Below are positions 1 to 63,276 of a DNA stretch of 64,000 bases, in pieces. The position numbers were made by a program, and so were the translations under genes. Positions within the stretch are counted from its first letter, which is position 1; every line of letters begins with the position of its first letter. The notes under the pieces were generated by a model that was not told where the DNA came from, did not search any database, and saw only the letters and a program-made list of their open reading frames with translations. Source of the stretch: Pedococcus aerophilus (lineage in GTDB: Bacteria; Actinomycetota; Actinomycetes; Actinomycetales; Dermatophilaceae); assembly GCF_039532215.1 (NCBI RefSeq), contig NZ_BAAARN010000001.1, positions 311,036-375,035 on the forward strand, in the 5' to 3' direction.

Positions 1-360
1 TCAGGCGGTGCGCTTGCGACGCGGCTTCTCACCGCGGGACTCGCGCAGGAGCGTCAGTCGCTCCTCGAGGAGCTCCTCGAGCTCGGGGATGGAGCGACGC
101 TCGAGCAGCATGTCCCAGTGGGTGCGGACGTGCTTGACCTGCTTGGCCTCGGGCTCGGGTCCGTCGACGAGACGGGCCTCCTCGCCGCAACGGCACTCCC
201 AGGTCGGCGGGATCTCCGCCTCGATCGAGAACGGCAGCTCGGTCCGGTGCCCCTGCGGGCACACGTATGCCGTGATCTGACGCTCGCTCGGGACGACGTG
301 GTCGTCGGTCTCGAGGCTGTGTGAAACCATTCGGCTACCGCGGAGGGTGCGCTCTGCCAT
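1..360 (-). CDS. rbpA: RNA polymerase-binding protein RbpA
   Basis: A 119-residue protein that, in this family, binds RNA polymerase holoenzyme and the principal sigma factor and stabilises the open promoter complex. The N-terminal core carries the four zinc ligands at the positions known for the Streptomyces protein: C34, H38, C56 and C58. The C-terminal sigma-binding part has the family signature THWDMLLERRS followed by a basic tail. The ATG at 358-360 is chosen because GGGAG lies about 9 bases upstream; an in-frame TTG five codons earlier would overlap that ribosome site. The stop codon is at the very edge of the window, so the gene is complete. It is preceded by a sigma-R-like promoter, as for rbpA in Streptomyces. 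Confidence 0.95.
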   Translation of the reverse strand: MAERTLRGSRMVSHSLETDDHVVPSERQITAYVCPQGHRTELPFSIEAEIPPTWECRCGEEARLVDGPEPEAKQVKHVRTHWDMLLERRSIPELEELLEERLTLLRESRGEKPRRKRTA

Positions 361-426
361 GGTGGGTTCTCCCAACGTGCGTGGTTCCCAGCCCGCTCTG
401 TCGGGGGCTCGGGATTCGTCAGGGAT

Positions 427-452
427 AACGACATCGACCCCTGCAATGTTCC
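427..452 (-). promoter_or_regulatory. Sigma-R (SigR/SigH)-type promoter of rbpA
   Basis: On the minus strand the sequence reads GGAAC, exactly 18 bases, then GTT. This matches the GGAAT-N18-GTT consensus of thiol-stress sigma factors of the SigR/SigH group. It lies about 70 bases upstream of the rbpA ATG. In Streptomyces coelicolor rbpA is a known SigR target, so both element and gene fit. Confidence 0.65.
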
Positions 453-480
453 GACGCCCCGGCGCGTCGCACGGTTGGCG

Positions 481-502
481 TGCTGTGACTCAGGTCACAG
501 CA
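481..502. promoter_or_regulatory. Perfect inverted repeat TGCTGTGAC-N4-GTCACAGCA (CRP-like site or terminator)
   Basis: Two perfect 9-base arms are separated by TCAG. The centre fits TGTGA-N6-TCACA, the consensus of CRP/GlxR-type cAMP regulators. It sits 18 bases beyond the stop of the transporter gene and about 30 bases upstream of the rbpA sigma-R-like promoter. It could instead be the transporter's terminator hairpin, but no T-run follows it on the minus strand. Confidence 0.5.
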
Positions 503-519
503 CGGGTGGTCGCCGCAGG

Positions 520-1905
520 TCAGACGACCTCCGGCACCTCGTTGCCCGCGTCGAGGATGCCCTGCCTCATGTCGACCCGGGACAGCAGCACACCGCCGAT
601 GAGGAAGAACACCACGAGCGCCACGATGGCCGGGCGGTAGGAGTCGGTGAGCTGGTAGACGATGCCGAAGGTGAGCGTCCCGAACCAGCTCGTCCCACGC
701 TCCATGGCCTGGTAGAGGCTGAAGAACTCCGCCTCACGGTTCTTGGGGACCAGCTGGCTGTAGAGCGAGCGGCTCAGCGCCTGGGTGCCGCCGAGGACGA
801 GGCCGATCGCGACCCCGAGGGCGAACAACGGGGGGAGGGTCTCCTCGGGGAGGAAGAAGGCGAACACGACCACACCGCTCCACAGCACCAGGCCACCCAG
901 GACGCAGCGCCACGCACCGAACCGACGAGCCAGGAGGCCGAACAGCAGGGCGCCACCGATGCCGACGAACTGCACCATGAGGAACAGCGTGAGCATCGTG
1001 GTCTCGGGGAAGCCGAGCTCCCGCTGCCCGTAGAGGCTGGACTGGCCGATGACCGTCTGGATGCCGTCGTTGAAGAACAGGTAGGCCACGAGGAACAACA
1101 TCGTCTGGGGGAGCAGCCGCAGCTCGCGGAACGTCGAGGCCAGCTGACGCAGGCTGCCGCCGACGATCCCCGCAGTCCGGGCGACCTCGGGGCGTTCGAC
1201 CCCCCGCAACCGCCACATGCCGATGACCGGGACGAGGGTGAACGCCGCCCACCACAGGCCGGCCATGAGCATGCTCACCCGCACCGCGCCGCCGCGGTCC
1301 AGCCCCAGCCGCTCGGGGTTGCTCAGCATGAGGAAGTTCACGGCGAGCAGCAGCCCACCACCGAGGTAGCCCAGCGCCCATCCCCGCGAGGAGACCTTGT
1401 CGCGGTCGTCGGGACTGGCGATCCGGCACAAGATCGCGTCGTAGACGACCAGTGAGGCTCCCAGGCTCAGGGTGGCCACGATGAGCAGGACGACTCCGAG
1501 CTGCCAGTTGGTCCCCCGGACCAGGGACATCAGGCAGGCCGCCAGCGCGCCCACCCCGGCGAAGGCACCCAGGAGGCGGGCGGGGCGGGGGGAGCGGTCC
1601 GCGATGGCTCCCACGAAGATCAGCGCGATCGCCGAGACGATGGTGGCCACCGTGACGGTGAACGGGGCGAGCGAGCCGGGAGAGATGCCGATCCCCAGGA
1701 CCTGGAGGTTGGTGCGGCACACCTCCCCGTCGGCGAGGTCGGGGCAGGCGGCACTCTCGGCCACGGCCGTGAGGTATGGCGTGAAGAGGACGGTCGCGGT
1801 GGTGGTGACGTAGGCGGAGTTCGCCCAGTCGTACCAGTACCAGGACTTGCGGTAGTGCTCGTTCCCCACCCAGGTCGGCTGCTGCTCGACCGCCGCTGTT
1901 GTCAT
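520..1905 (-). CDS. MFS transporter, Atg22/UMF1-like
   Basis: A 461-residue integral membrane protein with about 12 hydrophobic segments. The N-terminal motif YDWANSAY just before the first membrane helix is typical of the Atg22-like (UMF1) group of the major facilitator superfamily, whose yeast member exports amino acids from the vacuole. The bacterial substrates are largely unknown, so none is assigned. Length is normal for the group. It starts at an ATG with no clear Shine-Dalgarno sequence and stands alone, with the M15 peptidase gene 85 bases upstream on the same strand. Confidence 0.8.
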   Translation of the reverse strand: MTTAAVEQQPTWVGNEHYRKSWYWYDWANSAYVTTTATVLFTPYLTAVAESAACPDLADGEVCRTNLQVLGIGISPGSLAPFTVTVATIVSAIALIFVGAIADRSPRPARLLGAFAGVGALAACLMSLVRGTNWQLGVVLLIVATLSLGASLVVYDAILCRIASPDDRDKVSSRGWALGYLGGGLLLAVNFLMLSNPERLGLDRGGAVRVSMLMAGLWWAAFTLVPVIGMWRLRGVERPEVARTAGIVGGSLRQLASTFRELRLLPQTMLFLVAYLFFNDGIQTVIGQSSLYGQRELGFPETTMLTLFLMVQFVGIGGALLFGLLARRFGAWRCVLGGLVLWSGVVVFAFFLPEETLPPLFALGVAIGLVLGGTQALSRSLYSQLVPKNREAEFFSLYQAMERGTSWFGTLTFGIVYQLTDSYRPAIVALVVFFLIGGVLLSRVDMRQGILDAGNEVPEVV

Positions 1906-1990
1906 GCGTGAAGGGTGGCACAGCGACGTGCGTCACAGATGCGTATTGCTACCCAGAGCGGGCCGCGAGTCGGCCCCGGCGGGGAGCGGA

Positions 1991-3397: not shown

Positions 3398-3459
3398 TCT
3401 TCCTCAACGACCCTAACCACCAGGTCGTCCCCGCCGCCTCGGTCGTTCTGTCGAGAAGA

Positions 3460-3960: not shown

Positions 3961-3978
3961 GACCGTTGAGTCTGCCAC

Positions 3979-4108: not shown

Positions 4109-5833
4109 ATGCGCCGTTCCGCCCACCCGACCAGCCCTGCACTGCCCGCGCGGGCCGGCCGCGCCCGACGCATGGCGGTGGGGGCAGGCGCCGCGTTGGT
4201 CGCCGTCGTCGTCGTCACCGCCGACGGGACCACCGCGGCCAGCGCGCACGGGGCGCACCGACACCACGATGGCCACGCCTCCTCGGAGCACTCCTCCGAC
4301 CGGCGGCTGACCCCCCGCACCCACTTCACGATGAAGGACGACGGGTCCAGCGGTGCGACGCAGGGTGGCGAGGGGATCCCGAACATCGACTCGGTGAAGA
4401 AGACGATCTACACGTACTACGGCGACCCGAACGGCACCGGGGACGCGAACCCGACCTCCTCGCCCTACGTCTCCGAGATGTCCTCGATCCTGCGCACGCA
4501 GCGCCGCCAGCTGCCCCGCCTGCTCGCCGATGCACAGCGCCACCACACCAAGCCGGCCATCGTCTTCGACGCCGACGACACCACCCTGTGGACGTACCAG
4601 ATGGAGGTGGGCGCGATGAAGTTCGTGTTCACCCCCGCCGCCCAGGGGCCGTTCGTCGACGGTGAGAAGTTCCCCGCCGTGCCCGGGATGGTCGACTTCG
4701 TCAACGACGCCGAGAAGATGGGCTTCACCGTGTTCGGCCTCACCGGCCGTGGTGACAGCCAGAAGGCCCACACGGTGTCCAACCTGGCCAAGGTCGGCTA
4801 CACCGCGTTCCCCGCGAACCGTTTCTTCACCAAGTACGACTCCGGCACCACCCCGCCGTCCTACCTGCCCCCCTCGTGGTGCACCGCCTACCCCAAGTGC
4901 ACGACCGTGGAGTACAAGGCCGGGACTCGCCGCCACATCGAACGGGACCTCGGCTACGACATCGTGCTGAACGTCGGCGACCAGTTCTCCGACCTGCAGG
5001 GCGGGTATGCCGAGCACTCGCTCAAGCTGCCCAACCCGACGTACTACCTCCCGTCGCCGAACCTGCCCGGGGTCTCCGAGCCCCGGCTGGCGCCCCGCAC
5101 ACGGTTCACCATGTCCGCCGACGGCTCCAGCGGTGCGACCCAGGGTGGCGAAGGCATACCCAACATCGACGTCGTCAAGAAGACCATCGCTGTCTACTAC
5201 GGCGACACGGGCACCGGCACCTCGGACAAGGCGTCCTCCCCGTACATCAGCGAGATGCGAGCCCTGGTCGCCCGCCGCAGCCGCACCCTGCTCCAGCAGT
5301 GCGCCACCGGCGCACGCCGAGGAACGCACCCGGCGATCGTCCTCGACGCCGACGACACGACCTTGTGGACCTACGACATGGAGGTTGCGGCGATGCACTT
5401 CGTCTTCGACCCGGTGGTCCAGGACCAGCAGTGGGTCCAGCCGCAGCGGTTCCCGGCGACCCCGGCCATGGTCTCGTTCGCGAACGCCGCGTCCGACGCC
5501 GGCTGCACCATCGTGGGCCTGACGGGCCGCAACAGCACCCAGCGGGACGCCACCCTCGGCAACCTCGCCAAGGTCGGCTACACCGGTTTCACGGCGGCCA
5601 ACTACTACACGAAGTGGACGAGCAGCGAGCAGCCCCCGGCCTACATCACCCCGGCGGACTGCTTGGCCTGGCCCAAGTGCACGACGATCGAGTACAAGTC
5701 CACCACCCGACGCCACGTCGTCGACCAGGGCTACGACGTCATCGCCAACTTCGGCGACCAGTACAGCGACCTCATCGGCGGCAGCGCCGACCGGGCGGTC
5801 AAGCTCCCCAACCCGACGTACTACCTGCCGTAG
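4109..5833 (+). CDS. Secreted acid phosphatase with two tandem HAD (class IIIB) domains
   Basis: A 574-residue protein of two homologous halves. Each half starts with a conserved block (RLTPRTHFTM / RLAPRTRFTM, then SSGATQGGEGIPNID) and carries a full HAD phosphatase set: FDADDTTLW with D154/D156 and LDADDTTLW with D413/D415; GLTGR; and NVGDQFSDL (D291, D295) and NFGDQYSDL (D550). Both halves therefore look catalytically intact. The N-terminus has RARR followed by a hydrophobic stretch ending near TAASA, so it is exported, possibly by Tat. HAD IIIB members are usually single-domain acid phosphatases of about 220-260 residues. GGAG lies 7 bases before the ATG. A strong hairpin follows the gene. 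Confidence 0.85.
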   Translation: MRRSAHPTSPALPARAGRARRMAVGAGAALVAVVVVTADGTTAASAHGAHRHHDGHASSEHSSDRRLTPRTHFTMKDDGSSGATQGGEGIPNIDSVKKTIYTYYGDPNGTGDANPTSSPYVSEMSSILRTQRRQLPRLLADAQRHHTKPAIVFDADDTTLWTYQMEVGAMKFVFTPAAQGPFVDGEKFPAVPGMVDFVNDAEKMGFTVFGLTGRGDSQKAHTVSNLAKVGYTAFPANRFFTKYDSGTTPPSYLPPSWCTAYPKCTTVEYKAGTRRHIERDLGYDIVLNVGDQFSDLQGGYAEHSLKLPNPTYYLPSPNLPGVSEPRLAPRTRFTMSADGSSGATQGGEGIPNIDVVKKTIAVYYGDTGTGTSDKASSPYISEMRALVARRSRTLLQQCATGARRGTHPAIVLDADDTTLWTYDMEVAAMHFVFDPVVQDQQWVQPQRFPATPAMVSFANAASDAGCTIVGLTGRNSTQRDATLGNLAKVGYTGFTAANYYTKWTSSEQPPAYITPADCLAWPKCTTIEYKSTTRRHVVDQGYDVIANFGDQYSDLIGGSADRAVKLPNPTYYLP

Positions 5834-9077: not shown

Positions 9078-9632
9078 TCAACGGGCGAACTCGACCTCGG
9101 CCGACTGCAGGACGGCAGCGGTGCGTCCCGGTGCCGACTGGTGCTGCCAGTACAGGTTCGTGTGCGCGACGACCTGCTCGGGCGCTGGTGCACCCCAGTC
9201 CGTCAGGTCCTCGGTCGTGTGGGCGTCTGCGACCAGCGTGACGTCATACCCGCGGACGAAGGCCCCGTGGATCGTCGACCGGATGCACGCGTCGGTCTGG
9301 GCGCCGGTCACGACGAGGCTCCCGACACCGGCGGCGGCCAGGACGGACTCGAGGTCGGTGTCCTCGAAGGAGTCGCCGAACCGCTTGTGCACCAACGGTT
9401 CCGACGATTCGGGCGCGAGCTCGGCGACGTACTCCCACTCGGCACTCCCCCGCGCCAGGTGCTCGCTCGAGTGCTGGACCCACACGACCGGCGTTCCGGC
9501 CGTCCGAGCCCGGTCGACCAGGGACACGATGTTCGCGACGACCTCGTCGCGACGGTGGGCGCCGGCGACGACACCCTTCTGGACGTCGATGACGACGAGA
9601 GCGGTGGCGCTGCGGTCGGTGAAGGTGCTCAT
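9078..9632 (-). CDS. Isochorismatase-family cysteine hydrolase
   Basis: A 184-residue cysteine hydrolase of the isochorismatase/nicotinamidase fold. The catalytic triad is visible: Asp in VVIDVQKG, Lys in LVHKRFGDSF, and Cys in QTDACIRSTIHGA. The substrate cannot be assigned; relatives hydrolyse nicotinamide, isochorismate, carbamoyl-sarcosine or related amides. The ATG at 9632 is used; a -10-like TAGCGT ends 7 bases before it with no Shine-Dalgarno sequence, so the transcript is probably leaderless. Confidence 0.85.
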   Translation of the reverse strand: MSTFTDRSATALVVIDVQKGVVAGAHRRDEVVANIVSLVDRARTAGTPVVWVQHSSEHLARGSAEWEYVAELAPESSEPLVHKRFGDSFEDTDLESVLAAAGVGSLVVTGAQTDACIRSTIHGAFVRGYDVTLVADAHTTEDLTDWGAPAPEQVVAHTNLYWQHQSAPGRTAAVLQSAEVEFAR

Positions 9633-12847: not shown

Positions 12848-12879
12848 GTATGCCGCGCGGCCCGGACCGCGCGGCATAC
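12848..12879. repeat. 32-bp perfect palindrome between yciO and tdh
   Basis: GTATGCCGCGCGG and CCGCGCGGCATAC are perfect 13-base arms around CCCGGA. The element fills much of the 71-base divergent region, begins inside the yciO -10 box and ends 18 bases before the tdh -10. Each arm carries one copy of the dispersed octamer GTATGNCG. It could be an operator shared by both promoters. Confidence 0.6.
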
Positions 12880-18640: not shown

Positions 18641-18712
18641 GGCTTTCCGCTCCGGCGGTATGGCGCGTCGCCGGTCCGACGGCGCAGGTCCAGGTCCGCG
18701 GAGGTCAGGCGC

Positions 18713-18822: not shown

Positions 18823-19435
18823 GCGGCGGACGCACGACGGTGAGGTCACGGCGCCGGGGCGTCGGGAGGACGGCCGGCGCCCCGGGAGCGGTGGCGGCCC
18901 GCACCGGCTCCGGGTCCGCCGGCCACGCCTTGGCGCCCTCGTCGTCGAACAGCGCCACCGCGCTGCGCTCCCCCGGTGTGAACCGCGGCCCGTACCTCAC
19001 GCCGGCGTGCCCCGCGCGGTCGAACGCCTGCGCCCACACCTGGGGCACGGCATACGGGACCATCGTCTCGAGCTCACGCGTCACGCCGTGGTCCCCTGCA
19101 GCAGATGACTGCAGGTCGGCGACGACGCGTCCCTCGGGCAGCCGCAACCGTGACACCACGACGTCCTCGAGGAGGCTCTCCGGCACGGCGGCAGCGCCGC
19201 CGAGGACCGGTCCCACGCGTTCGCGCACCGCGCTGCCCGGGTCGAGCGCCGTGTAGCAGGTGCCCCGGGGAGAAGGGAGGTCGAAGCGTCCGCCGCCCTC
19301 GTTGCCGAACCACCAGGGCCCGAAGGCTGCGGCATGGGCCCGGAAGAGGTCGGTGGTGGGCGCGACCACGTGGGTCGGGAAGCCTTCGAGCGAGGTGCTG
19401 GGCGGTCCCTGCGCCACCTGTTCCCGGTCGCTCAT
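18800..19435 (-). CDS. RES-domain toxin (NAD+ phosphorylase family)
   Basis: A 211-residue RES-domain protein. In this toxin family the domain degrades NAD+. The visible active-site elements are Arg in LFRAHAAAFG, GGGRF, Tyr in GTCYTALD and Glu in AVRERVG. The usual Ser near the domain end (in Y-x-S-R) appears as Y-G-P-R, so the third RES residue may be missing. The ATG overlaps the antitoxin stop by four bases (ATGA). The last codons lie in the 55-bp repeat, so the C-terminal tail (RTRVPRS) is probably recent. Toxin identity is by domain and operon, not by experiment. Confidence 0.7.
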   Translation of the reverse strand: MSDREQVAQGPPSTSLEGFPTHVVAPTTDLFRAHAAAFGPWWFGNEGGGRFDLPSPRGTCYTALDPGSAVRERVGPVLGGAAAVPESLLEDVVVSRLRLPEGRVVADLQSSAAGDHGVTRELETMVPYAVPQVWAQAFDRAGHAGVRYGPRFTPGERSAVALFDDEGAKAWPADPEPVRAATAPGAPAVLPTPRRRDLTVVRPPRTRVPRS

Positions 19436-20875: not shown

Positions 20876-20915
20876 AGGTGGGCCCGCGGCATACTCCATC
20901 GACCCACGGGGACCA

Positions 20916-22397: not shown

Positions 22398-22541
22398 GGG
22401 GGACCTCCCTTGACGGTGCATCCGGTATGCCGGTGGGCCACCTCGTGTGCGGACGCCGTGACGACATGACGCCGTGATGACCTAACCATGCGCAGGGCGC
22501 GCCTGCCAACGGCTGTCAGCCCCCGCTCGTAGCCTGCAGGG

Positions 22542-27002: not shown

Positions 27003-29936
<2,934 letters not shown>

Positions 29937-29993
29937 GAGGCTCCTGAACGTCGGACTGCTCGGATCGCCTCCCCATCTGTCACGGCTTGACCG

Positions 29994-36200: not shown

Positions 36201-36644
36201 CTAATCCTCGCCGCGCAGGGCCGCCAACGTCTTCTCGACCCGCCGCGCGCGGGTCTCTGCGGCCTTGGCACCCTCGATGGCCAGGGCGTGCTGACGCTGG
36301 TGGGAGTAGGAGAGCCGTGCCCAGGCCGACGTCGCGTCAGGGTCGTCGGCCAGGGCCTTCGCGAGCTCGGCCGGGACCTCGACGACACGCGGCGCGGTGT
36401 CCAGCTCGAGGTCCACGTCATACGTCCGGCCCCCGGTGGTGCCGGTGAGCCCGCGGTTCTCCGCGCTCACCCCGACCCAGGATCTGCCCCCCATCGGCGC
36501 GATGCTGCCGCGGTAGGTCACGCCGTTGACGGTCACCGTGACCTTCGGGCGCCTGCCACCACCGAGGGCGTCGACCACCTCCTGCGGCACCTCGAACCCC
36601 GTGGTCGTCCCACCCGTCTGCTGGAGCTCGGCCGTGAACCTCAT
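36201..36644 (-). CDS. YdeI/DUF1905 family protein
   Basis: A 147-residue protein with an N-terminal DUF1905 beta domain (MRFTAELQQTGGTTTGFEVP) and a C-terminal YdeI-like helical tail (AWARLSYSHQRQHALAIEGAK). The function of the family is unknown; E. coli YdeI is linked to stress tolerance. The ATG at 36644 is chosen because the upstream codons show no similarity. It is divergent from the DUF2461 gene, 61 bases apart. Confidence 0.8.
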   Translation of the reverse strand: MRFTAELQQTGGTTTGFEVPQEVVDALGGGRRPKVTVTVNGVTYRGSIAPMGGRSWVGVSAENRGLTGTTGGRTYDVDLELDTAPRVVEVPAELAKALADDPDATSAWARLSYSHQRQHALAIEGAKAAETRARRVEKTLAALRGED

Positions 36645-40444: not shown

Positions 40445-41848
40445 ATGAATGACGATAGCAGTTCGCGGATCGCCACGGCGCTGCGGGCCTGGATCGCGGA
40501 CGCTCCCCCGGGCGCGCGACTGCCGTCCTCCCGCTCGCTGGTGTCCGAGCACCGAGCCAGCCCGGTGACGGTGCAGCGGGCCCTGCACGAGCTCACCCGA
40601 GCCGGTCTGGTCGAGATCAGGCCGGGCGTGGGCACCTTCGTCCGCTCGGTGCGGACGACCCGGCCTGCGGACTACGGCTGGCAGAGCGCCGCTCTCGGCG
40701 CGCCCGAGGCACCGGGTCGGGGTGTCTCGACCGCCCTCCGCACGGCCCCGAACGACGCCATCGCGCTGCACTCGGGGTACCCGGACCGTGAGCTGCTCCC
40801 CCAGCGCCTCGTCCGCGCTGCGCTCGGACGCGCCACCCGCGCGGACGCGGCGCTCACCCGCCCGCCCGTGGCCGGACTGCCCGAGCTGCAGGCGTGGTTC
40901 GCCCACGAGCTCGGGGCGCTGTGCCCCGCGGGCGTCAGCACCCCAGGCGCGAGCGACGTGATCGTCCTGCCGGGCAGCCAGAGCGGCCTGAGCACCCTGT
41001 TCCGCGTGCTGGCCACGCGCGGGGGACCTGTGCTCATGGAGTCCCCGACGTACTGGGGAGCCATCAGCGCCGCCGCGCAGGCCGGCGTCCGCGCCATACC
41101 CGTGCCGTCAGGCCCCGACGGACCCGACCCCGAGGAGCTCGACCGCGCCTTCGCCGACAGCGGCGCCCGCGTGTTCTACGCCCAACCCACCTACGCGAAC
41201 CCCACCGGGACCCAGTGGTCGCCCGAGCGCGCCGCCGCGGTGCTGGACGTGGTCCGCTCGCGCGGTGCGTTCCTGGTGGAGGACGACTGGGCGCACGACT
41301 TCGGCATCACGACGCAGCCACGCCCCGTCGCCGCCCTCGACGACTCCGGGCACGTGGTCTACCTGCGCTCGTTGACCAAGAGCGTCTCCCCCGCCCTGCG
41401 GGTCGCGGCAGTCGTGGCACGGGGTCCGGCACGCGAACGCATCCTCGCCGACCGCAGCGCCGAGTCCATGTACGTCAGCGGGCTGCTCCAGACGGCCACC
41501 CTCGACGTCGTCACCCAGCCGTCGTGGCAGTCGCACCTCAAGGGGGTCCGTGAGCAGCTCCGCGCCCGACGCGACCTGATGCTCGACAGCCTGCTGGAGC
41601 ACGCCCCGTCGGCGCACGTCGAGCACGTGCCACCCGGGGGGCTGAACCTCTGGGCCCGGCTCCCCGACGGGACCGACCTCGCCCGCCTCGTCCAGGACTG
41701 CGAACGTCGCGGCCTGGTCGTCGCACCCGGCGACGAGTGGTTCCCGGCGGAGCCGACCGGCCCGTTCCTGCGGCTCAACTACTCGGGTCCCGATCCCTCA
41801 CGGTTCGCTGCCGGAGCCCGGATCCTGGGCGAGGCGCTCAGCGCCTGA
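40445..41848 (+). CDS. MocR-type PLP-dependent transcriptional regulator
   Basis: A 467-residue fusion of a GntR winged helix (residues about 5-70: RIATALRAWIADAPPGARLPSSR, then GLVEIRPGVGTFV) and an aminotransferase class I fold (about 100-465) with the PLP lysine in LRSLTKSVSPALRVA. MocR proteins use PLP and an amino acid ligand to control B6, GABA, ectoine or transporter genes. The divergent EamA transporter is the likely target. TACTGT lies eight bases before the ATG, so it is probably leaderless. Confidence 0.88.
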   Translation: MNDDSSSRIATALRAWIADAPPGARLPSSRSLVSEHRASPVTVQRALHELTRAGLVEIRPGVGTFVRSVRTTRPADYGWQSAALGAPEAPGRGVSTALRTAPNDAIALHSGYPDRELLPQRLVRAALGRATRADAALTRPPVAGLPELQAWFAHELGALCPAGVSTPGASDVIVLPGSQSGLSTLFRVLATRGGPVLMESPTYWGAISAAAQAGVRAIPVPSGPDGPDPEELDRAFADSGARVFYAQPTYANPTGTQWSPERAAAVLDVVRSRGAFLVEDDWAHDFGITTQPRPVAALDDSGHVVYLRSLTKSVSPALRVAAVVARGPARERILADRSAESMYVSGLLQTATLDVVTQPSWQSHLKGVREQLRARRDLMLDSLLEHAPSAHVEHVPPGGLNLWARLPDGTDLARLVQDCERRGLVVAPGDEWFPAEPTGPFLRLNYSGPDPSRFAAGARILGEALSA

Positions 41849-42107: not shown

Positions 42108-42144
42108 GCACGGCACACCGCTGCTTGAAATCGGTATGCCGTGC
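42108..42144 (-). terminator. Hairpin between der and tRNA-Pro
   Basis: GCACGGCA-C-ACC pairs with GGT-A-TGCCGTGC around GCTGCTTGAAATC. It lies 41 bases beyond the der stop on the minus strand and contains one GTATGNCG octamer. Confidence 0.6.
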
Positions 42145-43642: not shown

Positions 43643-43747
43643 GGGAAATCCTTGCGTTGGTCTGTGTTCGGGCCACGGCGCGCGGTATGGCGCGGGGCCG
43701 CCCCACATTGTCGCGCACTTTTCGGTGCGGCCGGGACACCAGCCCCG

Positions 43748-44546: not shown

Positions 44547-45629
44547 TCAGCCGTGCAGGCGCCAGCCCCGGGCGACGAGCTCGTCACCGAGCCGCTCGGC
44601 GACCGCCGGCAGCACCGACACCTCCGCCAGCCCGAAGGGCTGCCCGAGGCCGTGCTCGAGGTGCAGGTCCTCGAGGTTGACGCCGGCGTCACCCACGTCG
44701 TGCAGCAGCCGCGCCAGCTCGCCCGGTTCGTCCGGGACGAGCACCGTGACGACCGCGTATGCCGTCGGCGCGGCACCGTGCTTGCCAGGGATCCGTGCGT
44801 GGCCGGCGTTGCCCTGGGCCACGATCCGGGCCAGCACCTCGCGCGCGCCGACCCCGTCACCCTCGGCCAGGGAGTCCAGGGCGGAGATGACCTCGCCGAG
44901 CTCGGTGTGGACGTGCGCCAGGACGTCGCGGACCGCTGTGGCGTTGCCGGCCAGGATCTGGGTCCACAGCTGCGGGTCGCTCGCGGCGACCCGGGTGACG
45001 TCGCGGATGCCCTGCCCGGACAGGGCCACCGCAGGGTCGGAGAGGTCCCGCAGTCGTCCGGCCACCAGGGAGGACGCGAGCTGCGGGACGTGCGAGACGG
45101 CGGCGACGGCGGCGTCGTGGTCGGTGGGACTCATCGTGCTGACGGTGCCCCCCGCCGCGGCGGCCATCGCACGCACGGACTCCACGGCCGACGGTGACGA
45201 CTCGGGGCCTGGCACGACGACCCAGGCCCGGCCGTCGAAGAGGTCGCCACGCGCGGCCACCGCGCCGGAGCGCTCGCGCCCGGCCATGGGGTGGGACCCC
45301 ACGTACCGCGCGAGGTCGCCCCCGAGGGCGCGGACGTGGTCGAGCACGGCGACCTTGACGGACGCGACGTCGGTGACGACTGCCGTCGGCCACTGCGTGA
45401 GCTCGTGCGCCACGACCTGCCCGGCGACATCGGGGGGCGCAGCCACGACCACGAGGTCCGGCGCCGGATCGCCCTGCGCCGCAAGCGAACCCGCGCCGAG
45501 ATCGCGCGCCAGCGCGGCGGCGGTCGGCGAGGGGTCGCTGAGCACGACGGCATACCCGGCACGGCTCAGGGCGATGCCCAGGCTCGTGCCGATGAGGCCG
45601 GTGCCGACGATCCTGACGCGTGGGGTCAC
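44547..45629 (-). CDS. tyrA: Prephenate dehydrogenase with C-terminal ACT domain
   Basis: A 360-residue NAD-dependent dehydrogenase of tyrosine biosynthesis. N-terminal Rossmann loop GTGLIGTSLGIALSRAG, HPMAGRERSG (substrate binding), then a helical dimerisation part and a C-terminal ACT-like domain (VVTVLVPDEPGELARLLHDVG) suited to tyrosine feedback. GTG start seven bases after TAGCCT, probably leaderless. Confidence 0.9.
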   Translation of the reverse strand: MTPRVRIVGTGLIGTSLGIALSRAGYAVVLSDPSPTAAALARDLGAGSLAAQGDPAPDLVVVAAPPDVAGQVVAHELTQWPTAVVTDVASVKVAVLDHVRALGGDLARYVGSHPMAGRERSGAVAARGDLFDGRAWVVVPGPESSPSAVESVRAMAAAAGGTVSTMSPTDHDAAVAAVSHVPQLASSLVAGRLRDLSDPAVALSGQGIRDVTRVAASDPQLWTQILAGNATAVRDVLAHVHTELGEVISALDSLAEGDGVGAREVLARIVAQGNAGHARIPGKHGAAPTAYAVVTVLVPDEPGELARLLHDVGDAGVNLEDLHLEHGLGQPFGLAEVSVLPAVAERLGDELVARGWRLHG

Positions 45630-50448: not shown

Positions 50449-51696
50449 CTAGCGGGCCACCCGGCCCGAGGCCTGAGTGAGGGCGCGCAGCCGGGCGGCG
50501 TGCTCGGACGTCAGGGCTCCGGGCTCCATCTGCCAGGACCAGCCGCCCTCGATGCCCGGGGCGTTCATCCGGGCGGACGCCCCCAGGCCCAGGACGTCCT
50601 GGGCCTGCATCATGGCCAGCCCGCACGGGGTCGCGAGGGCGAGCTCGATCATCGCCCAGCTCGGCTCCTCGTCACCGTCGGCCCGCACGCCCTGCTCACG
50701 CCACGCGGCGCGCACGAGGTCGCGACGGTGCTCGGGCAGCTCGGCCCACCAGCCCACGACGGTGTCGTTGTCGTGGGTGCCGGTGTAGACCACCTGGTCG
50801 GCGGCGAGGTTCACGAGGTCGTGCGTGTTGTAGTCGTAGGCCGGCTCGAACCCGAACTGCAGCACCGCCATGCCGGGGAACCCGAGGGCCTTGCGCAGGT
50901 CGATGACCGGCTGGTCGATGTCGCCGAGGTCCTCGGCGAGGACCGGGAGGTCGCCGAGCGCGGCGCAGGCCGCGTCGAACACGGCCCGACCCGGACCGGT
51001 CTCCCACTGCCCGTTCAGCGCGGTCTCGTCACCGGCGGGGATGGCCCAGTACGCGGCGAAGCCGCGGAAGTGGTCGACCCGGACGAGGTCGAACAGCGCG
51101 AACGTGCGGCGCAGACGCTCGATCCACCACCGGTAGCCGTCGTCGGCGAGGACGTCCCATCGGTAGAGCGGGTTGCCCCAGAGCTGGCCGGTGGCGGCAT
51201 ACGCGTCGGGCGGGCACCCGGCCACGGCGTCGGCGCGGAAGAACTGCGGCCAGGCCCGCTCGTCGGCACCGTCGGGGGCGACGTAGATCGGGACGTCGCC
51301 GAGGATCTGGATCCCGCGCCCGCGGGCGTAGTCGCGCAGGGCCGACCACTCGCGGTCGAAGCGCACCTGGTCGGAGAGGTCGCCGCCGAAGCTCGTCCAC
51401 GACCCGACCCAGTAGGCCTCGCGCTCGGCGAAGGCGTCGAGCTCGGCCCGGCTGACCGGGGCGTCCGGCTCCTCGAGGAGGGCTGCGGAGGCGGCGAACG
51501 CGGACGGCGACTTGTACGGCGAACGGTGCTGGTCGGGCACCGAGACGGGCAGCACCTGCCAGACCGACTGCCCCGCCTCGGCGAGCCAGTCGACGAAGTC
51601 GCGTGCGGGCTGGCCGAGGCGACCGCCGGGCAGGGACGTGATGTGCAGCTGGACCCCGCTGGCGCGGGAGTCGGTCAGCGGCTGGGTCGAGTCCAT
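50449..51696 (-). CDS. malQ: 4-alpha-glucanotransferase (GH77), short form
   Basis: A 415-residue GH77 enzyme that transfers alpha-1,4-glucan segments. The catalytic residues are the nucleophile Asp in [14 protein letters not shown], the acid/base Glu in VLAEDLGDI and Asp in [12 protein letters not shown]. The family is usually 500-700 residues; the sequence starts directly at the catalytic barrel ([13 protein letters not shown]), so accessory parts are absent while the active site is complete. Confidence 0.85.
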
Positions 51697-53081: not shown

Positions 53082-53779
53082 GCGCCCAATCCTTGCAGGT
53101 GGGGGTTGGTCGCCCGCTCCCGCTCCATCGTCGAGGCGCCGTAGTGCCCCGGGAGCACGAGCGTCGTGTCCGGCAGCGGCAGGACGACGTCGCGCAGCGA
53201 GCGGTGCATGGCGGCCGCGTCGCCGCCGGGCAGGTCGGTCCGACCGATCGACCCGGCGAACAGCACGTCCCCGCTGAGCACCGTCCGGTCGACGTCGACC
53301 TGGTCGGCGATCCCGTCCGGGACGGCGTCCACGGCGAACATCACCGACCCCTCCGTGTGGCCGGGGGCGTGCAGGACGTCGAAGCCGAGCCCGGCGAGGT
53401 CGAGGTGGGTCCGGTCGCCGATCTCGACGACGTTGGACGGCTCGGTCCACGTGGCCCTGGTGCCGAACTGCTGCTCGAGCATTGCGACCAGGCCGGGGTT
53501 GGACTGCCCGAGCAGGTCCACGAGCCGATAGCGGTCGTTCGCGTGGATGTATGCCGCCGTGTCGGCGCCGCAGACCGGCGTCACCGAGTAGACGTGGTCG
53601 AGGTGCCCGTGGGTGAGCAGGACCGCGGCCGGTCGGAGCCGGTGCTCGGTGAGGACGGCCCGCAGGGTCTCCTCGATCCCGATGCCGGGGTCGACCACGA
53701 CGCACTCCTCCCCCGGCGCCGGGGCCAGGACGTAGCAGTTCGTGTCGAAGGCGGTGGCAGGAAATGCGACGGTCAGCAC
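53078..53779 (-). CDS. MBL-fold metallo-hydrolase (glyoxalase II-like)
   Basis: A 233-residue metallo-beta-lactamase-fold hydrolase: THGHLDH, APGHTEGSVMF and LSGDVLFAGSIGRTDLPGGD, the pattern of glyoxalase II-like proteins. It is cotranscribed with hisS. A -10 TAGGCT ends seven bases before the GTG, so it is probably leaderless. The substrate is unknown. Confidence 0.85.
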   Translation of the reverse strand: MLTVAFPATAFDTNCYVLAPAPGEECVVVDPGIGIEETLRAVLTEHRLRPAAVLLTHGHLDHVYSVTPVCGADTAAYIHANDRYRLVDLLGQSNPGLVAMLEQQFGTRATWTEPSNVVEIGDRTHLDLAGLGFDVLHAPGHTEGSVMFAVDAVPDGIADQVDVDRTVLSGDVLFAGSIGRTDLPGGDAAAMHRSLRDVVLPLPDTTLVLPGHYGASTMERERATNPHLQGLGA

Positions 53780-56426: not shown

Positions 56427-56855
56427 GTGAGCGACTCCCCCGCCCTCGTGGCGCTCCTCGCCGCGGCGATGCTGCACCTCGGCTTCCAGCTCACCGTCAC
56501 CTGCCTCGTCTACCCCGCCCTCGCGCGCACCGACGAGACGCAGTGGTCCAGGGCGCACGACGCCCACAGTCGCGCGATCGTCCCCCTCGTCGTCCTGACG
56601 TATGGCGCCCTGCTCGCCACCCTCACCTGGTCCTGGCTCACCGCCCCGACCAGCGCGGGACTCCTCCTCGCGACGGCCGGGACGGTTCTCACCTTCGCGA
56701 CGACCGCATTCGTCGCCGCCCCGACCCACAGCCACCTGGGCCGAAACGGCAAGACCCGTAACGCGATCCACCGCCTCCTGTTCGCCGACAGGGTTCGCGC
56801 AGCCGGGGCGCTGGTGGCGGCAGTCGGCGCCGTCATCGCAGCGACGAGGCGCTAG
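56427..56855 (+). CDS. Small four-helix membrane protein
   Basis: A 142-residue protein with four hydrophobic segments (about 5-27, 51-72, 75-94 and 121-139), a YPAL motif after the first helix and a basic region before the last. It resembles DUF1772-like membrane proteins only weakly; no function is assigned. GTG start; no ribosome site seen. It is convergent with rel, the stops being adjacent. Confidence 0.6.
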   Translation: MSDSPALVALLAAAMLHLGFQLTVTCLVYPALARTDETQWSRAHDAHSRAIVPLVVLTYGALLATLTWSWLTAPTSAGLLLATAGTVLTFATTAFVAAPTHSHLGRNGKTRNAIHRLLFADRVRAAGALVAAVGAVIAATRR

Positions 56856-59165
56856 CTAGGCCTTGGCGGCCGTCGCCTTGGTGCCGGTGATCCGGTAGAC
56901 GTCGAAGACGCCGTCGATGCGACGCACCGCCTTCATCACGTGGTCGAGGTGGCTCGGATCCCCCATCTCGAACGTGAACTTCGAGATGGCCACCCGGTCT
57001 CGCGAGGTCTGCACCGAGGCCGACAAGATGTTGACGTGCTGGTCGGACAGCACGCGGGTGACATCGGAGAGCAGCCGGTTGCGGTCGAGCGCCTCGACCT
57101 GGAGCTGGACGAGGAAGACCGACGCCGACGAGGGCGCCCACTCGACCTCGATCATCCGATCTGGTTGCGACAGGAGCGATTCCGCGTTGGTGCAGTCGGT
57201 GCGGTGGACCGAGACGCCGTTGCCGCGGGTGATGAAACCCATGATTGGGTCACCGGGCACCGGGGTGCAGCACCGGGCGAGCTTGACCCACACGTCGGCG
57301 GTGCCGACGACGACCACGCCGGGGTCGCCGGACCGGCGGCGCATGGAGCGGGTCGGGGTGGTGGCCTCCGCGAGGTCCTCGGACGCACCCTCCTCGCCAC
57401 CGAGGGAGACGACGAGGCGGCCCACCACGTGCTGGGCGGACACGTGCCCCTCGCCGACGGCGGCATACAGGGCGTCGATGTCCTGGTAGCGCAGCTCGGA
57501 GGCGAGGCCCGTGAGGGTCTCCACGGTGAGCAGGCGCTGCAGCGGCAGGCCCTCCTTGCGCATCGCCTTGGCGATCGCGTCCTTGCCGGTCTCGATCGCC
57601 TCCTCACGGCGTTCCTTGGAGAACCACTGCTTGATCTTGTTGCGCGCCCGCGGTGACTTGACGAACGTCAGCCAGTCGCGCGAAGGGCCGGCGCCGTCGG
57701 CCTTGGAGGTGAGCACCTCGACGACGTCACCGTTCTCGAGGGTGGACTCCAGTGGCACGAGCCGTCCGTTGACGCGGCCGCCGATGCAGTGGTGTCCGAC
57801 CTCGGTGTGGACGGCGTAGGCGAAGTCGACCGGGGTGGCCCCGGCGGGAAGGGCCACGACCTCGCCCTTGGGCGTGAAGACGTAGACCTCGCGGGCGTTG
57901 ATCTCGAACCGCAGCGAGTCGAGGAACTCCCCCGGGTCGGCGGTCTCCTTCTGCCAGTCGAGCAGCTGGCGCAGCCACGCCATGTCGTTGATCGGGCCGG
58001 TCTCGCCGTCGCGGGTGCCTGCGGGCGGCGCGGTGCCGTCCTCCTTGTACTTCCAGTGCGCTGCGACGCCGTACTCCGCCCGGCGGTGCATGGTGTGCGT
58101 CCGGATCTGGATCTCCACGGGCTTGCCCTGCGGCCCGATGACCGTCGTGTGCAACGACTGGTACATGTTGAACTTGGGCATCGCGATGTAGTCCTTGAAC
58201 CGCCCGGGCAGGGGGTTCCAGCGGGCGTGCAGGGCACCGAGCGCGGCGTAGCAGTCGCGCACCGAGTCGACGAGGACCCGCACCGCGACGAGGTCGTAGA
58301 TGTCCTCGAAGTCGCGGCCGCGGACGATCATCTTCTGGTAGACGGAGTAGTAGTGCTTCGGGCGGCCGGTGACGGTCGCCTTGATCTTGGCGCCGCGCAG
58401 GTCCTCGCTCACCTGGTCGCGCACGCCGGAGAGGAACTCCTCGCGCGCGGGCGCCCGCTCGGCGACGAGCCGCACGATCTCGTCGTACACCTTGGGGTAG
58501 AGCGTCGCGAACGACAGGTCCTCGAGCTCCCACTTGATGGTGTTCATGCCGAGCCGGTGGGCCAGCGGCGCGTAGATCTCGAGCGTCTCGCGGGCCTTGC
58601 GCTGGGCCGACTCGACCGAGACGTAGCGCCAGGTGCGCGCGTTGTGGAGGCGGTCGGCGAGCTTGATGACCAGGACGCGGATGTCGCGAGCCATGGCCAC
58701 GACCATCTTGCGGACCGTCTCGGCCTGGGCCGCGTCGCCGTACGTCACCTTGTCGAGCTTGGTGACGCCGTCGACGAGCATCGCGACCTCGCGCCCGAAG
58801 TCCTTCTCCAGCTGGGAGAGGCTGTAGGCCGTGTCCTCCACCGTGTCGTGCAGGAGCGCCGCCGCGAGGGTGGCGGGCGTCATGCCGAGCTCGGCCAGGA
58901 TCGTCGTGACGGCCAACGGGTGGGTGATGTAGGCGTCGCCGGACTTGCGCTTCTGGCCCCGGTGGGCCTCCTCGGCGACGACGTAGGCCCGCTCGATGAC
59001 GGTCAGGTCCGCCTTGGGGTGGGTCGCCCGCACCGTCTGGAGCAGTGGTTCGAGGACCGGGTTGGTGGGCCCGCCCCGGCTGCCGAAGCGCGCCAGGCGG
59101 GCCCGTACACGGCTCGCGGACGACGCGCCGGTGGGCACCGGACCGGTGACGACGTCCTCACTCAT
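56856..59165 (-). CDS. rel: Bifunctional (p)ppGpp synthetase/hydrolase Rel
   Basis: A 769-residue RelA/SpoT homolog. The hydrolase HD site is [10 protein letters not shown], with DRLHNARTW; the synthetase region has [15 protein letters not shown] and [15 protein letters not shown]; then TGS ([16 protein letters not shown]) and a C-terminal ACT domain ([19 protein letters not shown]). Such full-length actinobacterial Rel both makes and breaks (p)ppGpp. Confidence 0.96.
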
Positions 59166-59746: not shown

Positions 59747-59748
59747 GG

Positions 59749-60924: not shown

Positions 60925-62723
60925 AGCGCGGTCCCGTCGCTCGTGGCCGAAGCGGTCTTGTTCATGGCGGGCATCGCGATCCGTCCTCGTCCGGCGTACC
61001 GGGGCTTGGTGGCCTTGACGCCCAGGCGCTGGGGATCCAGGCCGGACCAGCGGTGGCCGCCGCCGAAGAACTTCGTGTTCGCGAGCAGGGCCACGACCGG
61101 GTGGGTGAACATGACCACGACGAGGAGGTCGATGAGCGTGGTGAGCCCGAGGGTGAACGCGAACCCGCGCACGTTGGACGACGCCAGCAGGTAGAGGACG
61201 AAGGCGGCGAGGAAGTTGACGCCGTCGGCCGCGAGGATGGTGCGTCGTGCTCGGCGCCACCCGGTGTCGACGGCGGCGCGCAGCGGGCGGCCCTCGCGGA
61301 CCTCGTCCCGGATGCGTTCGAAGTAGACGATGAAGGAGTCCGCGGTGACACCGATGGCCACGATGAGGCCGGTGACACCGGCCATGTCGAGCCGGAAGTT
61401 CTGCGACCACCCCAGCAGCGCGATGGCCACGTAGGTGAGCAGCGCCGCGATGATGATCGACGCCACCGTGACCAGGCCCAGCGCGCGGTACTGCGCCAAG
61501 GAGTAGAGGAACACCAGTGCGAAGCCGATGATGCCGGCGACGAGTCCCATCCGCAGCTGCTCGCCACCGAGGGTCGGGCTGATCTGGTCGCGGGTCTGCA
61601 GGTCGAAGGACAGGGGCAGCGCACCGAACTTGAGCTGGTTGGCCAGGTCGCGAGCCGTGTCGATGGTGAACTGGCCGGTGATGCTGGCCTGCCCGTCGAG
61701 GATGGCGGCCTGCGCCGTCGGGGCGGTGAGCACCTGGGAGTCCAGGGTCACGGCGAAGCGGTTGCGCGGGTCCTCGAGGTTGACGAGGCGCTTGGTGACG
61801 TTGCCGAAGGCGGTGGTGCCGCTGCCGTTGAACGACAGCCGGATCTCCACGGTGCTCGACGGCTGGCCGTTGGGCAGCGGCTGGTAGCCGGCGACGGCGT
61901 CCTTGATCTGGTCGCCGCGGACCTCGACCTTGCCGAGGATGTACTTCTCGTCACCGGTGTCGGAGCAGGTGACGAGCGGCTTGTCCGGGTCGTCGACGAT
62001 GCCGTCGAGCACGCCGGGCTTGGCGCAGTCGAGGTCCTGGAACGCGGTGGTGAGCTCAGGGGTGATCTGCGCCAGGTCGCTGGCGTCCACCGGGCCTGTG
62101 GTGCTGCCCGTGGCCCCGGTCGTCGGCGTTGCACCGGTCGTCGCGCTCGGCTGCGGCGCGGTCGTGCTCTTGACGAAGGCGCCCGGGAGTCCGCTCTTGG
62201 CGGTGGTCGCGGCGCCCGTGGCCGTGGCGGCCGGCTTGGTCGTGGCCGTGCCGGTGGCGGTCCCCGTCGCCGTGCCGGTGGCGGTGCCCGTCGCGGTACC
62301 GGTTCCGGTCGGGACCGGGACGTTGGTGCCGGGGGCGGCTGCCAGGACCGGGCGGAACTGCATCTGCGAGGAACGGCGGATGGCGTCCTCGGTGGCCTTG
62401 GGCGGGGTGCCCGGCATGCTCACCACGATGTTGCGGCCACCGCTGGTGGTGACCTCGGCGCCGGCGACACCGTTGGAGTCGACGCGCTGCACGATGATGT
62501 CGCGAGCCTGGTTGAGCTGCTCGGTGGTCGGCTGGGTGTTGCCGACGAGGCGCGGGGCCAGGATCAGCTGCGTGCCGCCGGCGAGGTCGAGGCCGAGCTT
62601 GGGCGAGAACTGCGCCTCACCCCAGGTCGCGGCGGCGAAGAGCAGGCCGTAGAGGCCGATCGTGATCGCCGCCAGCGCCGACAGGACCTTCAGCGGCTTG
62701 CGGTGGTACGGGTTGATTGCCAC
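60921..62723 (-). CDS. secD: Protein translocase subunit SecD
   Basis: A 600-residue membrane protein: N-terminal helix, P1 domain with [14 protein letters not shown], and six helices with [26 protein letters not shown]. Between about residues 135 and 215 it carries a Thr/Gly/Ala/Pro-rich insertion with TATG repeats, longer than usual in SecD. With SecF it uses the proton gradient to help export. GTG start. Confidence 0.95.
   Translation of the reverse strand: [600 protein letters not shown]
62241..62316. repeat. GC-rich 12-bp repeat in secD
   Basis: The minus strand has repeats of ACCGGCACSGCSACS encoding TGTA/TATG. It makes the flexible insertion in the P1 domain and should be polymorphic. 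Confidence 0.7.
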
Positions 62724-62735
62724 GGGTGGTGACCT

Positions 62736-63047
62736 CTACTCGGTGGTGCCGGGGGTGCCCGGCTGCTCGGACGCCGCGGTGACGGGGGCCTTGAGGCCGA
62801 TGGCCCGACGGTCGAACTTCAGGACGACGCCGGGGGCCACCTCGAGGGTGACCACGGAGTCCTCGAGGGAGCGGACCGTGCCGAACAGACCCGAGGTCGT
62901 GCAGACCTCGTCACCCACCGCCAGACCGGCCTGGAGGGACTGGACCTCGCGCTGACGCCGCCGCTGGCTGAACACCATGAAGATGATGAGGAGCACGGGC
63001 AGGGCGAAGATCAGCAGGCTGGCTATGGGCGAGCCGCCATTCGACAT
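62736..63047 (-). CDS. yajC: Preprotein translocase subunit YajC
   Basis: A 103-residue protein with one membrane helix (about 8-26) and the basic FSQRRRQREVQ just after it, then a small soluble domain (VGDEVCTTSGLFGTVRSLED). It accompanies SecDF. The ATG at 63047 is chosen by family length. A promoter lies about 90 bases upstream. Confidence 0.93.
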   Translation of the reverse strand: MSNGGSPIASLLIFALPVLLIIFMVFSQRRRQREVQSLQAGLAVGDEVCTTSGLFGTVRSLEDSVVTLEVAPGVVLKFDRRAIGLKAPVTAASEQPGTPGTTE

Positions 63048-63135
63048 GGAGGATCCCTTCACGGTTGGCTGGTGGTGCGCGCAGCCGGATCGTCGGGCAC
63101 GCACGAGTCCCCGGCACTGGCCGGGTGACCGCCCG

Positions 63136-63165
63136 AGTGTAGGTGACGCACGGCATACCGACCAA
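63136..63165 (-). promoter_or_regulatory. Probable yajC-secDF-apt-rel promoter
   Basis: On the minus strand TTGGTC (63165-63160) and TACACT (63141-63136) are 18 bases apart, a reasonable vegetative promoter, leaving a leader of about 80 bases before yajC. One GTATGNCG octamer lies between the two boxes. Confidence 0.5.
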
Positions 63166-63276
63166 CGTGCCCCACCGTGGTCGCGTTCCAATTGTGACCA
63201 TTTCGCGAGCCGTCCCAGCAGCGCGGCGACCACCGCCGCCACCCGTATGGCGCGTGCTCACCGCCGCGCGCGGGCG

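Follow-up and report, generated by a model that had tools for sequence, protein, structure and literature searches.

The window considered here, meaning the whole stretch of 64,000 nucleotides that was analyzed, comes from the actinobacterium Pedococcus aerophilus (contig NZ_BAAARN010000001.1, positions 311,036 to 375,035 of the forward strand), and the feature in question is a short DNA word, GTATGNCG, that is scattered throughout it. A sequence-only reading of the window had claimed that this dispersed octamer is strongly over-represented, and the claim holds. There are 29 sites, all 29 start positions it gave are correct, and they divide into 14 forward (GTATGNCG) and 15 reverse (CGNCATAC) copies, within a total of 36 occurrences of GTATG/CATAC (18 per strand). 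The base at N is C in 18 of the sites, G in 8, A in 3, and T in none. The sites are given below, together with what is seen at the same place in orthologous DNA of four species of the same genus (G098, G072, G032, and G115), to which the window was aligned at 81-86% identity.

265..272, + strand: GTATGCCG site (word count)
1774..1781, + strand: GTATGGCG site (word count)
5005..5012, + strand: GTATGCCG site; G115 has GTACGCCG (alignment)
9242..9249, - strand: GTATGACG, a spelling not enriched in 464 kb of the home genome
9913..9920, - strand: GTATGGCG site
12848..12879: inverted pair of GTATGCCG sites, 12848 on the + strand and 12872 on the - strand (13-bp perfect stem)
18658..18665, + strand: GTATGGCG site
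19048..19055, - strand: GTATGCCG site; G115 has GTACGCCG (alignment)
20887..20894, - strand: GTATGCCG site
22425..22432, + strand: GTATGCCG site
23872..23879, + strand: GTATGCCG site; G115 has GTACGCCG (alignment)
28196..28203, - strand: GTATGACG, a spelling not enriched in 464 kb of the home genome
31944..31951, - strand: GTATGCCG site; retained in four same-genus species (alignment)
32856..32863, + strand: GTATGCCG site; G115 has GTACGCCG (alignment)
34043..34050, - strand: GTATGGCG site; not present in four same-genus species (alignment)
36416..36423, - strand: GTATGACG, a spelling not enriched in 464 kb of the home genome
39858..39865, - strand: GTATGCCG site
41092..41099, - strand: GTATGGCG site
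42134..42141, + strand: GTATGCCG site (word count, alignment)
43685..43692, + strand: GTATGGCG site; G032 has GTATGCCG (alignment)
44757..44764, + strand: GTATGCCG site; G115 has GTACGCCG (alignment)
45548..45555, - strand: GTATGCCG site; retained in four same-genus species (alignment)
51195..51202, - strand: GTATGCCG site; retained in four same-genus species (alignment)
53549..53556, + strand: GTATGCCG site; G115 has GTACGCCG (alignment)
56600..56607, + strand: GTATGGCG site; G098 has GTATGCCG, G115 has GTACGGCG (alignment)
57461..57468, - strand: GTATGCCG site; retained in four same-genus species and in G042 (alignment)
63151..63158, - strand: GTATGCCG site (alignment)
63245..63252, + strand: GTATGGCG site; G098 has GTATGCCG (alignment)

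Markov models of orders 1-3 fitted to the window predict 0.5-1.3 copies per octamer and 2.4-4.7 for the four octamers together, so the excess is larger than it appeared from the earlier estimate of about six expected sites. GTATGCCG is the most over-represented 8-mer of the window, with 18 copies compared to 1.0 at order 3 (z 13.8), and it lies more than 10-fold above the Markov expectation both in the window (orders 1-3) and in 464 kb of the home genome (orders 2-3). The flanks of the sites show no repeat-like conservation. When genes are called with our own simple gene caller, which underlies the counts of frame and anatomy, 12 of the 29 sites read xxG-TAT-GSC-Gxx, 5 read xCG-GCA-TAC, 2 fall in other frames, and 10 are intergenic or at gene edges. 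The sites had been described as lying in genes and gaps alike and in several frames; they do occur in both, but the frames are not arbitrary, there being mostly one per orientation. An example of silent changes making the core, taken from a duplicated phosphatase at 5153, has to be dropped, as that place reads GTATGCCT on the other strand and is not among the sites. The window also has an over-represented palindrome, ATCGCGAT, found at 5 places (10 counting both strands) compared to 1.2.

The excess of the word extends across the home genome (4.02 Mb in 10 contigs), where the word read backwards serves as the control. GTATGCCG occurs 1192 times (574+618), or one per 3.4 kb, compared to 64 (29+35) for the reversed control, and GTATGGCG occurs 293+322 times compared to 52+53. 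This control is inflated where the flank repeats part of the word, for example GCCGTATGCCG in G007, so it probably understates the fold values. A 464-kb sample of the home genome has 136 copies of GTATGCCG and 60 of GTATGGCG, for which an order-2 model expects 5.6 and 5.4, and a weaker excess is seen for GTATGCAG (14 compared to 2.2) and GTATGCGG (12 compared to 4.3). Neither GTATGACG (6 compared to 3.7 at order 2 and 11.8 at order 3) nor GTATGTCG (1 compared to 3.6 at order 2) is enriched in the same 464 kb. The word is therefore GTATG[C/G]CG, at one per 2.4 kb in this sample. Counts at the Markov expectation, which the sequence-only reading had named as the outcome that would speak against it, did not occur. 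The GTATG word is not palindromic, nor is the related word GTACGNCG described below, and the former is equally common in both orientations. A text search of the literature on the letters GTATGCCG brought up nothing recognized as relevant among the matches listed. Another octamer, CGGGGGAG, is over-represented in the 464 kb as well (118 compared to 31).

The word is specific to one actinobacterial family within the sampled order and patchy inside that family. The order was surveyed with 297 genomes, 24 of this family and 273 from 19 other families. The 273 genomes have at most 177 copies of GTATGCCG each, and in G328, the genome with 177, the reversed control is found 135 times. Ratios of GTATGCCG to its control outside the family come to about four only at fewer than 50 copies, and to 2.4-2.9 at 110-131 copies, where the genomes measure 8-9 Mb. 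Among 119 genomes of the family, the number of copies ranges from 7 to 4724, the maximum being found in 4.2 Mb. These genome-wide, family-wide, and order-wide counts bear out the earlier suggestion of a taxon-specific iterated motif. The best named relatives of the window protein encoded at 27003-30014 include Janibacter, Phycicoccus, Ornithinibacter, Tetrasphaera, Ornithinimicrobium, Kytococcus, and Austwickia (best 80 of 591), which probably places the host in the Dermatophilaceae/Intrasporangiaceae group. Eight named genomes were counted for GTAYGNCG and its reversed control. The counts are 5193 compared to 1074 in Austwickia sp. TVS 96-490-7B (mostly GTACGNCG among the matches listed), 2463 compared to 831 in an Ornithinibacter metagenome-assembled genome (MAG; many GTATGCCG among the matches listed), 3323 compared to 1379 in a Tetrasphaera MAG, and 1971 compared to 622 in a Phycicoccus MAG. 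They are 1295 compared to 839 in Ornithinimicrobium laminariae, 862 compared to 644 in Janibacter corallicola, 720 compared to 808 in J. indicus, and 567 compared to 565 in Kytococcus aerolatus. A different octamer, CCCCTTCG, is over-represented in genomes that do not have the GTATGCCG word: G037 has 24 compared to 4.1 (40 kb; loci L148 and L157), and two Janibacter loci (L010 and L078) have 14 compared to 1.8 and 15 compared to 2.3.

Within the family, the word exists in dialects. If a T class is defined by at least 100 copies of GTATGCCG per Mb and a C class by GTACGNCG, with class thresholds set after the counts were seen, 63 of the 119 genomes are of the T class, 10 are of the C class, 46 are of neither, and none passes both thresholds; some of the 46 show a weak, sub-threshold excess of GTATGCCG. 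The C-class genomes carry 8819 (G102), 8704 (G040), 8164 (G069), 7097 (G107), 6705 (G048), 6125 (G081), 6107 (G023), 6062 (G077), 4637 (G054), and 3371 (G024) copies of GTACGNCG, which is 3.8 to 12 times the reversed control. The two dialects can be found in a single genus: in g26, G025 and G096 have the T word and G069 has the C word. In G007, there are 158 copies of GTATGCCG compared to 3.1 expected, with all one-base neighbors at no more than twice the order-2 expectation, and 11 word-bearing genomes pooled have 790 compared to 24 (33-fold). In the nine pooled genomes other than the home genome and G098, GTATGGCG stands at 0.97 of expectation and one-base neighbors at no more than 2.4 times. 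Position 6 varies as well: it is C alone in G032 and G072 and C or G in the home genome, in G098 of the same genus, and weakly in G115. Genus g28 also has C or G at this position, with 0.67-0.90 copies of GTATGGCG per copy of GTATGCCG. Over 480 kb of four C-class genomes, GTACGNCG is at 3.1-4.8 times the order-2 expectation and its one-base neighbors at 0.1-2.4, compared to 0.6-1.3 for GTACGNCG in the home genome, G037, G001, and G007.

Four genomes of the sister family f5 (G122, G140, G156, and G171) have GTACGNCG at 3 to 6 times the reversed control, possibly the same dialect at lower strength or possibly a matter of codon use. Outside the family, the ratio is 5.7 in G156 and 4.1 in G171, and about 3.3-3.5 in single genomes of f5, f9, f14, and f16. 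GTACGNCG was considered as an order-wide word and rejected, since no other family is equally clear.

Codon choice also follows the word. In three genomes (the home genome, G007, and G032), TAT is used for 62-88% of the tyrosine codons at which the word is permitted compared to 1-9% elsewhere. In the home genome, TAT makes up 100 of 160 Tyr codons with G before and Ala and G after, compared to 2.2% of 2383 that are not before Ala; the corresponding figures are 68 of 77 compared to 8.7% of 606 in G007 and 38 of 50 compared to 0.9% of 646 in G032. Where the preceding base is not G, TAT is used in only 6 of 66, 4 of 16, and 1 of 24 cases, respectively, and in G069 and G037, which are without the T word, it is used in 0 of 329 and 0 of 203 Tyr codons. 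On the opposite strand, Ala before Tyr is written as GCA after xCG in 34 of 83 cases compared to 5 of 286 otherwise in the home genome, 44 of 61 compared to 2 of 69 in G007, and 25 of 37 compared to 3 of 71 in G032. The proposal of a selected or mutationally driven DNA word is thus upheld by the counts over the genome and the family and by codon choice at silent positions. Genomes that have the T word also use the Tyr-Ala-G.. context itself more often (226 in 149,538 codons of the home genome, 93 in 38,980 of G007, and 74 in 40,254 of G032) than those without it (18 in 19,536 of G069 and 12 in 11,575 of G037), so the word may reach into protein sequence. In the C dialect, G is the last base of four-fold degenerate codons before Tyr-GNN-G in 70% of 158 cases compared to 28% of 433 in G069, and in 57% compared to 25% in G023, 77% compared to 43% in G040, and 64% compared to 38% in G102. 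There is no such rise in G037, G001, or G007, and a smaller one is seen in the home genome (38% of 280 compared to 22% of 1165). The opposite-strand shift in C-dialect codons is present in G069, G023, and G102 but not in G040.

The 464 kb of the home genome contain 196 GTATG[C/G]CG sites. Called genes account for 157 of them (95 as xxG-TAT-GSC-Gxx and 38 as xCG-GCA-TAC), and the other 39 are intergenic or at edges, which gives a density per kb of 0.39 in genes and 0.66 between them. The T word is denser between genes than within them in 14 of 14 genomes examined, including the decaying G115 described below, although barely so in G097. Intergenic neighbors 8-45 bp apart in the 14 genomes are arranged as + - in 17 cases, as - + in 6, and as direct repeats in 4, and this preference (23 inverted compared to 4 direct) has a binomial p of 0.0003, with pairs that are not fully independent because the species are related. 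Neighboring sites in coding regions are inverted in 7 cases and direct in 2. Several inverted pairs have 9-18-bp stems and are situated 6-30 bp from the end of a gene. The window pair at 12848..12879 is 9 and 42 bp from genes called as divergent and therefore need not be a terminator; both of its sites are retained in G098, G072, and G032. Judging from a shared inner sequence, the site at 42134 seems to correspond to one arm of an inverted pair found in G098, G072, G042, and G115. In spacing, the home-genome sites are more even than expected by chance: the Fano factor is 0.67 in 3-kb bins, with no lower value among 760 control 8-mers, 0.68 in 5-kb bins, where 4 of 756 controls are lower, and 0.59 in 10-kb bins, where 6 of 756 are. 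Across twenty blocks of 20 kb from one home-genome contig, there are 87 forward and 83 reverse sites with no strand trend.

Some inverted pairs, in G032 and G007 among others, share more than the word. Two - + pairs have CATACAAATAG in common, and pairs in four species share GATTTCAAGC or its near complement between the arms, apparently at the position of window 42134. Such pairs could possibly be regulatory elements that have recruited the word.

Alignment of the same-genus species reveals how the word turns over. Where at least two other species have a site, it is retained in 14 of 26 cases in the home genome, 21 of 25 in G098, 19 of 25 in G072, 16 of 24 in G032, and 10 of 28 in G115; private sites number 3, 4, 6, and 6, and G115 has 1. 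Missing sites are one to three bases off the word at the orthologous place, which means that point mutation creates and removes sites, often silently. Retention of window sites exceeds that of control octamers in G098 (19 of 25 compared to 48%), G072 (13 of 20 compared to 41%), and G032 (11 of 20 compared to 36%), but not in G115 (7 of 19 compared to 50%). In G115, 11 of the 18 missing sites differ only by T to C at position 4, and GTACG[C/G]CG is found 118 times compared to 50 in 280 kb, with GTACGACG and GTACGTCG at expectation; such an excess would be expected to remain after T-word decay. The G115 lineage seems to have dropped the force that maintains the word. Loss of a com or tad gene was considered as the reason, and none is seen in the three loci compared, where some other genes near comEC are missing. 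The idea that the word arises solely from a C-to-T change of GTACGCCG was also rejected, as GTACGCCG is not depleted.

A candidate machinery for handling such a word is present in the family. The comEC gene is found in 115 of the 119 genomes, the other four being drafts of 58-95% completeness, and comEA adjoins it in the home genome and in the loci read. Since comEC is found with or without the word, ComEC is not its determinant. The home genome has a locus (L158) with the order tadA-tadB-tadC-flp-like-tadE and a second Flp/Tad locus (L138) next to a comF-like gene, the flp and comF labels coming from reading of the sequence; pilin-like genes adjoin tadC, at 10297-11935 of L158. When only genomes that are at least 90% complete are counted, 58 of 61 with the word have an L158-type tadB ortholog compared to 29 of 40 others (Fisher p 0.002), and by genus it is 31 of 31 compared to 11 of 17 (p 0.001), both tests treating genomes or genera as independent with no correction for phylogeny. 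L158 is thus associated with the word, although three exceptions disqualify it as a clean determinant. The VWA-type locus L138 is rejected as well, as it has clear matches in the word-less genus g2 (G001, G053, G083, and G106); L138-type matches are weak in many word-bearing genomes, for example G003, G004, G011, and G022. A type IVa pilus does not qualify as a general reader, since only 2 of 119 genomes have a match to TIGR01420 (PilT) above its cut-off.

Of 25 tad loci read, one of which (G027) stops at a contig edge, 3 from three genera have foreign or missing DNA at tadC. In G069 (C1:271,400-309,500; L233-L237 and L159), about 37 kb splits tadC in two; the element has a serine recombinase beside the far part of tadC and a type I restriction system. 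It contains 7 copies of GTACGNCG in 36,948 bases compared to 9.8 predicted from its own composition, and its flanks contain 194 in 81,900 bases compared to 53.6. In G048 (L238-L239 and L169), about 11 kb with terminase and capsid genes lies between the end of tadC and the flp-like gene. In G026, a genome with neither word (L240-L241 and L168), tadC homology ends at residue 257, and none of the flp-like, tadE, and tadF genes was seen in the 60 kb read. The tadC gene is possibly an integration hotspot in a gene of a competence pilus. Prophages and other mobile elements are described as inserting into competence genes in the available text of PMC4774983, so the tadC insertions fit a role in competence without proving it. 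The L168 locus of G026 also encodes, at 4597-5658, a predicted protein of 353 residues, the printed part of which is a tandem 13-residue repeat (DWQRQLFQKPLVP).

Judging from the sequences, GTATG[C/G]CG is most likely a DNA uptake sequence (DUS), a reading that we hold with moderate confidence. In such a system, the word would be a mark of self DNA that is read by a surface DNA receptor of the competence machinery; the reader would be a minor pilin of the Tad type, passing the DNA to ComEA and ComEC. Fragments that carry the word would be preferentially taken up and recombined, and a point mutation that creates the word would tend to spread by transformation, so that words would accumulate until the tolerant silent positions and intergenic gaps are filled. 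From genome comparison we infer that the cells take up DNA, do so better when the word is present, and use a Tad pilin to read it. We also lean, by a little, toward the wider proposal that this would be the first uptake sequence beyond two Gram-negative families, with GTATG[C/G]CG or GTACGNCG as the mark of self, a competence pilus of the Tad type as the reader, one-base changes between sister species, and word-poor mobile elements, some of them inside tadC.

Several observations weigh against this uptake reading. No receptor for the word was identified. The word-bearing genomes G017, G092, and G047 do not have a close tadB ortholog (from its sequence, G047 has a diverged tad locus of similar order, L146), and comEA/comEC and tad are also found in genomes without either word, so no tested gene tracks the word cleanly. 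G069 and G048 have an interrupted or shortened tadC yet carry the C word, and G115 is losing the T word though the com and tad genes compared look whole. The C dialect does not have the hairpin trait, with 3 inverted and 7 direct intergenic GTACGNCG pairs in 480 kb, and its density is lower between genes than inside them. It is also less sharp, since N is not free in G102 and G040 (C and A are favored) and some other octamers rank above GTACGNCG by order 2 in G069. The dialects are not wholly exclusive, as the C-class genomes G048 and G081 keep GTATGCCG at 202 compared to 45 and 189 compared to 41. Gaps between sites in G007 are no more even than random (coefficient of variation 1.02), and retention of aligned window sites in G042, a member of another genus, is 3 of 14 and does not exceed that of controls (36%). 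Finally, no report of natural transformation in Janibacter or Intrasporangiaceae was found in the one paper library searched.

The main rival is a word driven by methylation or repair, like the highly iterated palindrome (HIP) of cyanobacteria, in which a methyltransferase and a repair bias linked to it would generate the word and a change of enzyme would change the dialect. HIP words are iterated and lineage-specific, and alternate words replace them where another methyltransferase is present (available text of PMC4390886); creation by point mutation and the filling of silent sites would fit here too. We nevertheless consider this unlikely: the words described here are not palindromic, and no likely precursor is strongly depleted, with GTACGCCG, GTGTGCCG, GCATGCCG, and GTCTGCCG at 1.15, 0.84, 0.58, and 0.54 of expectation in the 11 pooled genomes. 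HIP1 deviations are biased to the outer positions according to the same text, which is not seen for this word, and the intergenic inverted pairs have no evident place in such a scheme. Chi-like and nucleoid roles fit worse. A binding site of a nucleoid or chromosome-organizing protein, spread by selection, would account for the even spacing in the home genome and for the presence of both orientations, but one-base dialect changes within genera g1 and g26 together with background counts in sister genera would be unusual for it, and TAT at 62-88% of the allowed Tyr codons suggests a force per site beyond a structural role; this origin is quite improbable. The same can be said, a shade more firmly, of a Chi-like recombination signal that would stop the double-strand-break machinery from degrading self DNA. 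Such a signal could well be a non-palindromic 8-bp word at one per 3.4 kb, and the density of Chi in E. coli is similar; against it stand the lack of orientation bias in the twenty blocks of one contig, the density of up to one copy per 0.5-0.9 kb in relatives, and the inverted pairs.

An origin in base composition, codon use, or a dispersed repeat could explain why coding sites are mostly in one frame per orientation, but it is hardly credible when the excess over Markov models is more than 10-fold, the flanks show no repeat-like conservation, the same genes otherwise rarely use TAT, and family genomes of similar GC (G026 at 0.70 and G117 at 0.72) are without the word. The family counts, the Markov excess, and the codon test refute it. 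The site of a nucleoid, repair, or modification system had been the mechanism put forward by the sequence-only reading, and it fits more poorly than an uptake sequence, because the one-base dialects barely overlap, intergenic pairs are inverted, spacing in the home genome is even, and the mobile element is poor in the word.

If the uptake reading is true, it would show that DNA self-marking arises repeatedly, since word, envelope, and probably pilus would differ from those of the known systems and the case would be independent of them. How uptake bias originates could then be tested over about fifty genera, two dialects, and many word-less lineages. The reading also predicts natural transformation in the family and would offer a practical rule for introducing DNA into these bacteria. 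If borne out by experiment, such a word would be a novelty in this branch of life; no report of an uptake sequence in Actinobacteria was found in the literature, as judged by listing and with most subscription journals not covered.

Strong uptake preferences are reported for two families, Pasteurellaceae and Neisseriaceae (available text of PMC7811141). According to the available text of PMC3630211, neisserial genomes contain 943-5918 copies of the main DUS dialect each, terminator-associated inverted pairs characterize the DUS, and some genera of Neisseriaceae have no obvious DUS; thousands of copies of a short word, dialects of one or a few bases that follow the species, and, in the case of the T word, inverted pairs are common to both. 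The hosts described here are, however, high-GC Gram-positive bacteria, and the word differs. The neisserial CTG core (PMC3630211, same text) is absent from GTATGCCG/CGGCATAC and from GTACGNCG/CGNCGTAC, so by sequence the word is not a neisserial DUS. The uptake signal sequences of Pasteurellaceae are similar in their spacing of about 1000 bp and their evolution by point mutation (PMC7811141, same text), but they have different hosts, and the density in the home genome is lower (one per 2.4 kb). HIP1 and the alternate HIPs, which accompany methyltransferases, resemble the present words as iterated, lineage-specific words that are swapped in some lineages (PMC4390886, same text), but they are palindromic. 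For the Flp/Tad competence of Micrococcus luteus, "uptake sequence" and "sequence-specific" are not among the terms in the available text of PMC4322843. That organism is likewise an actinobacterium with two tad loci, both of which are needed for its transformation according to the same text, and the home genome has two Tad-type loci (L138 and L158) and comEA-comEC.

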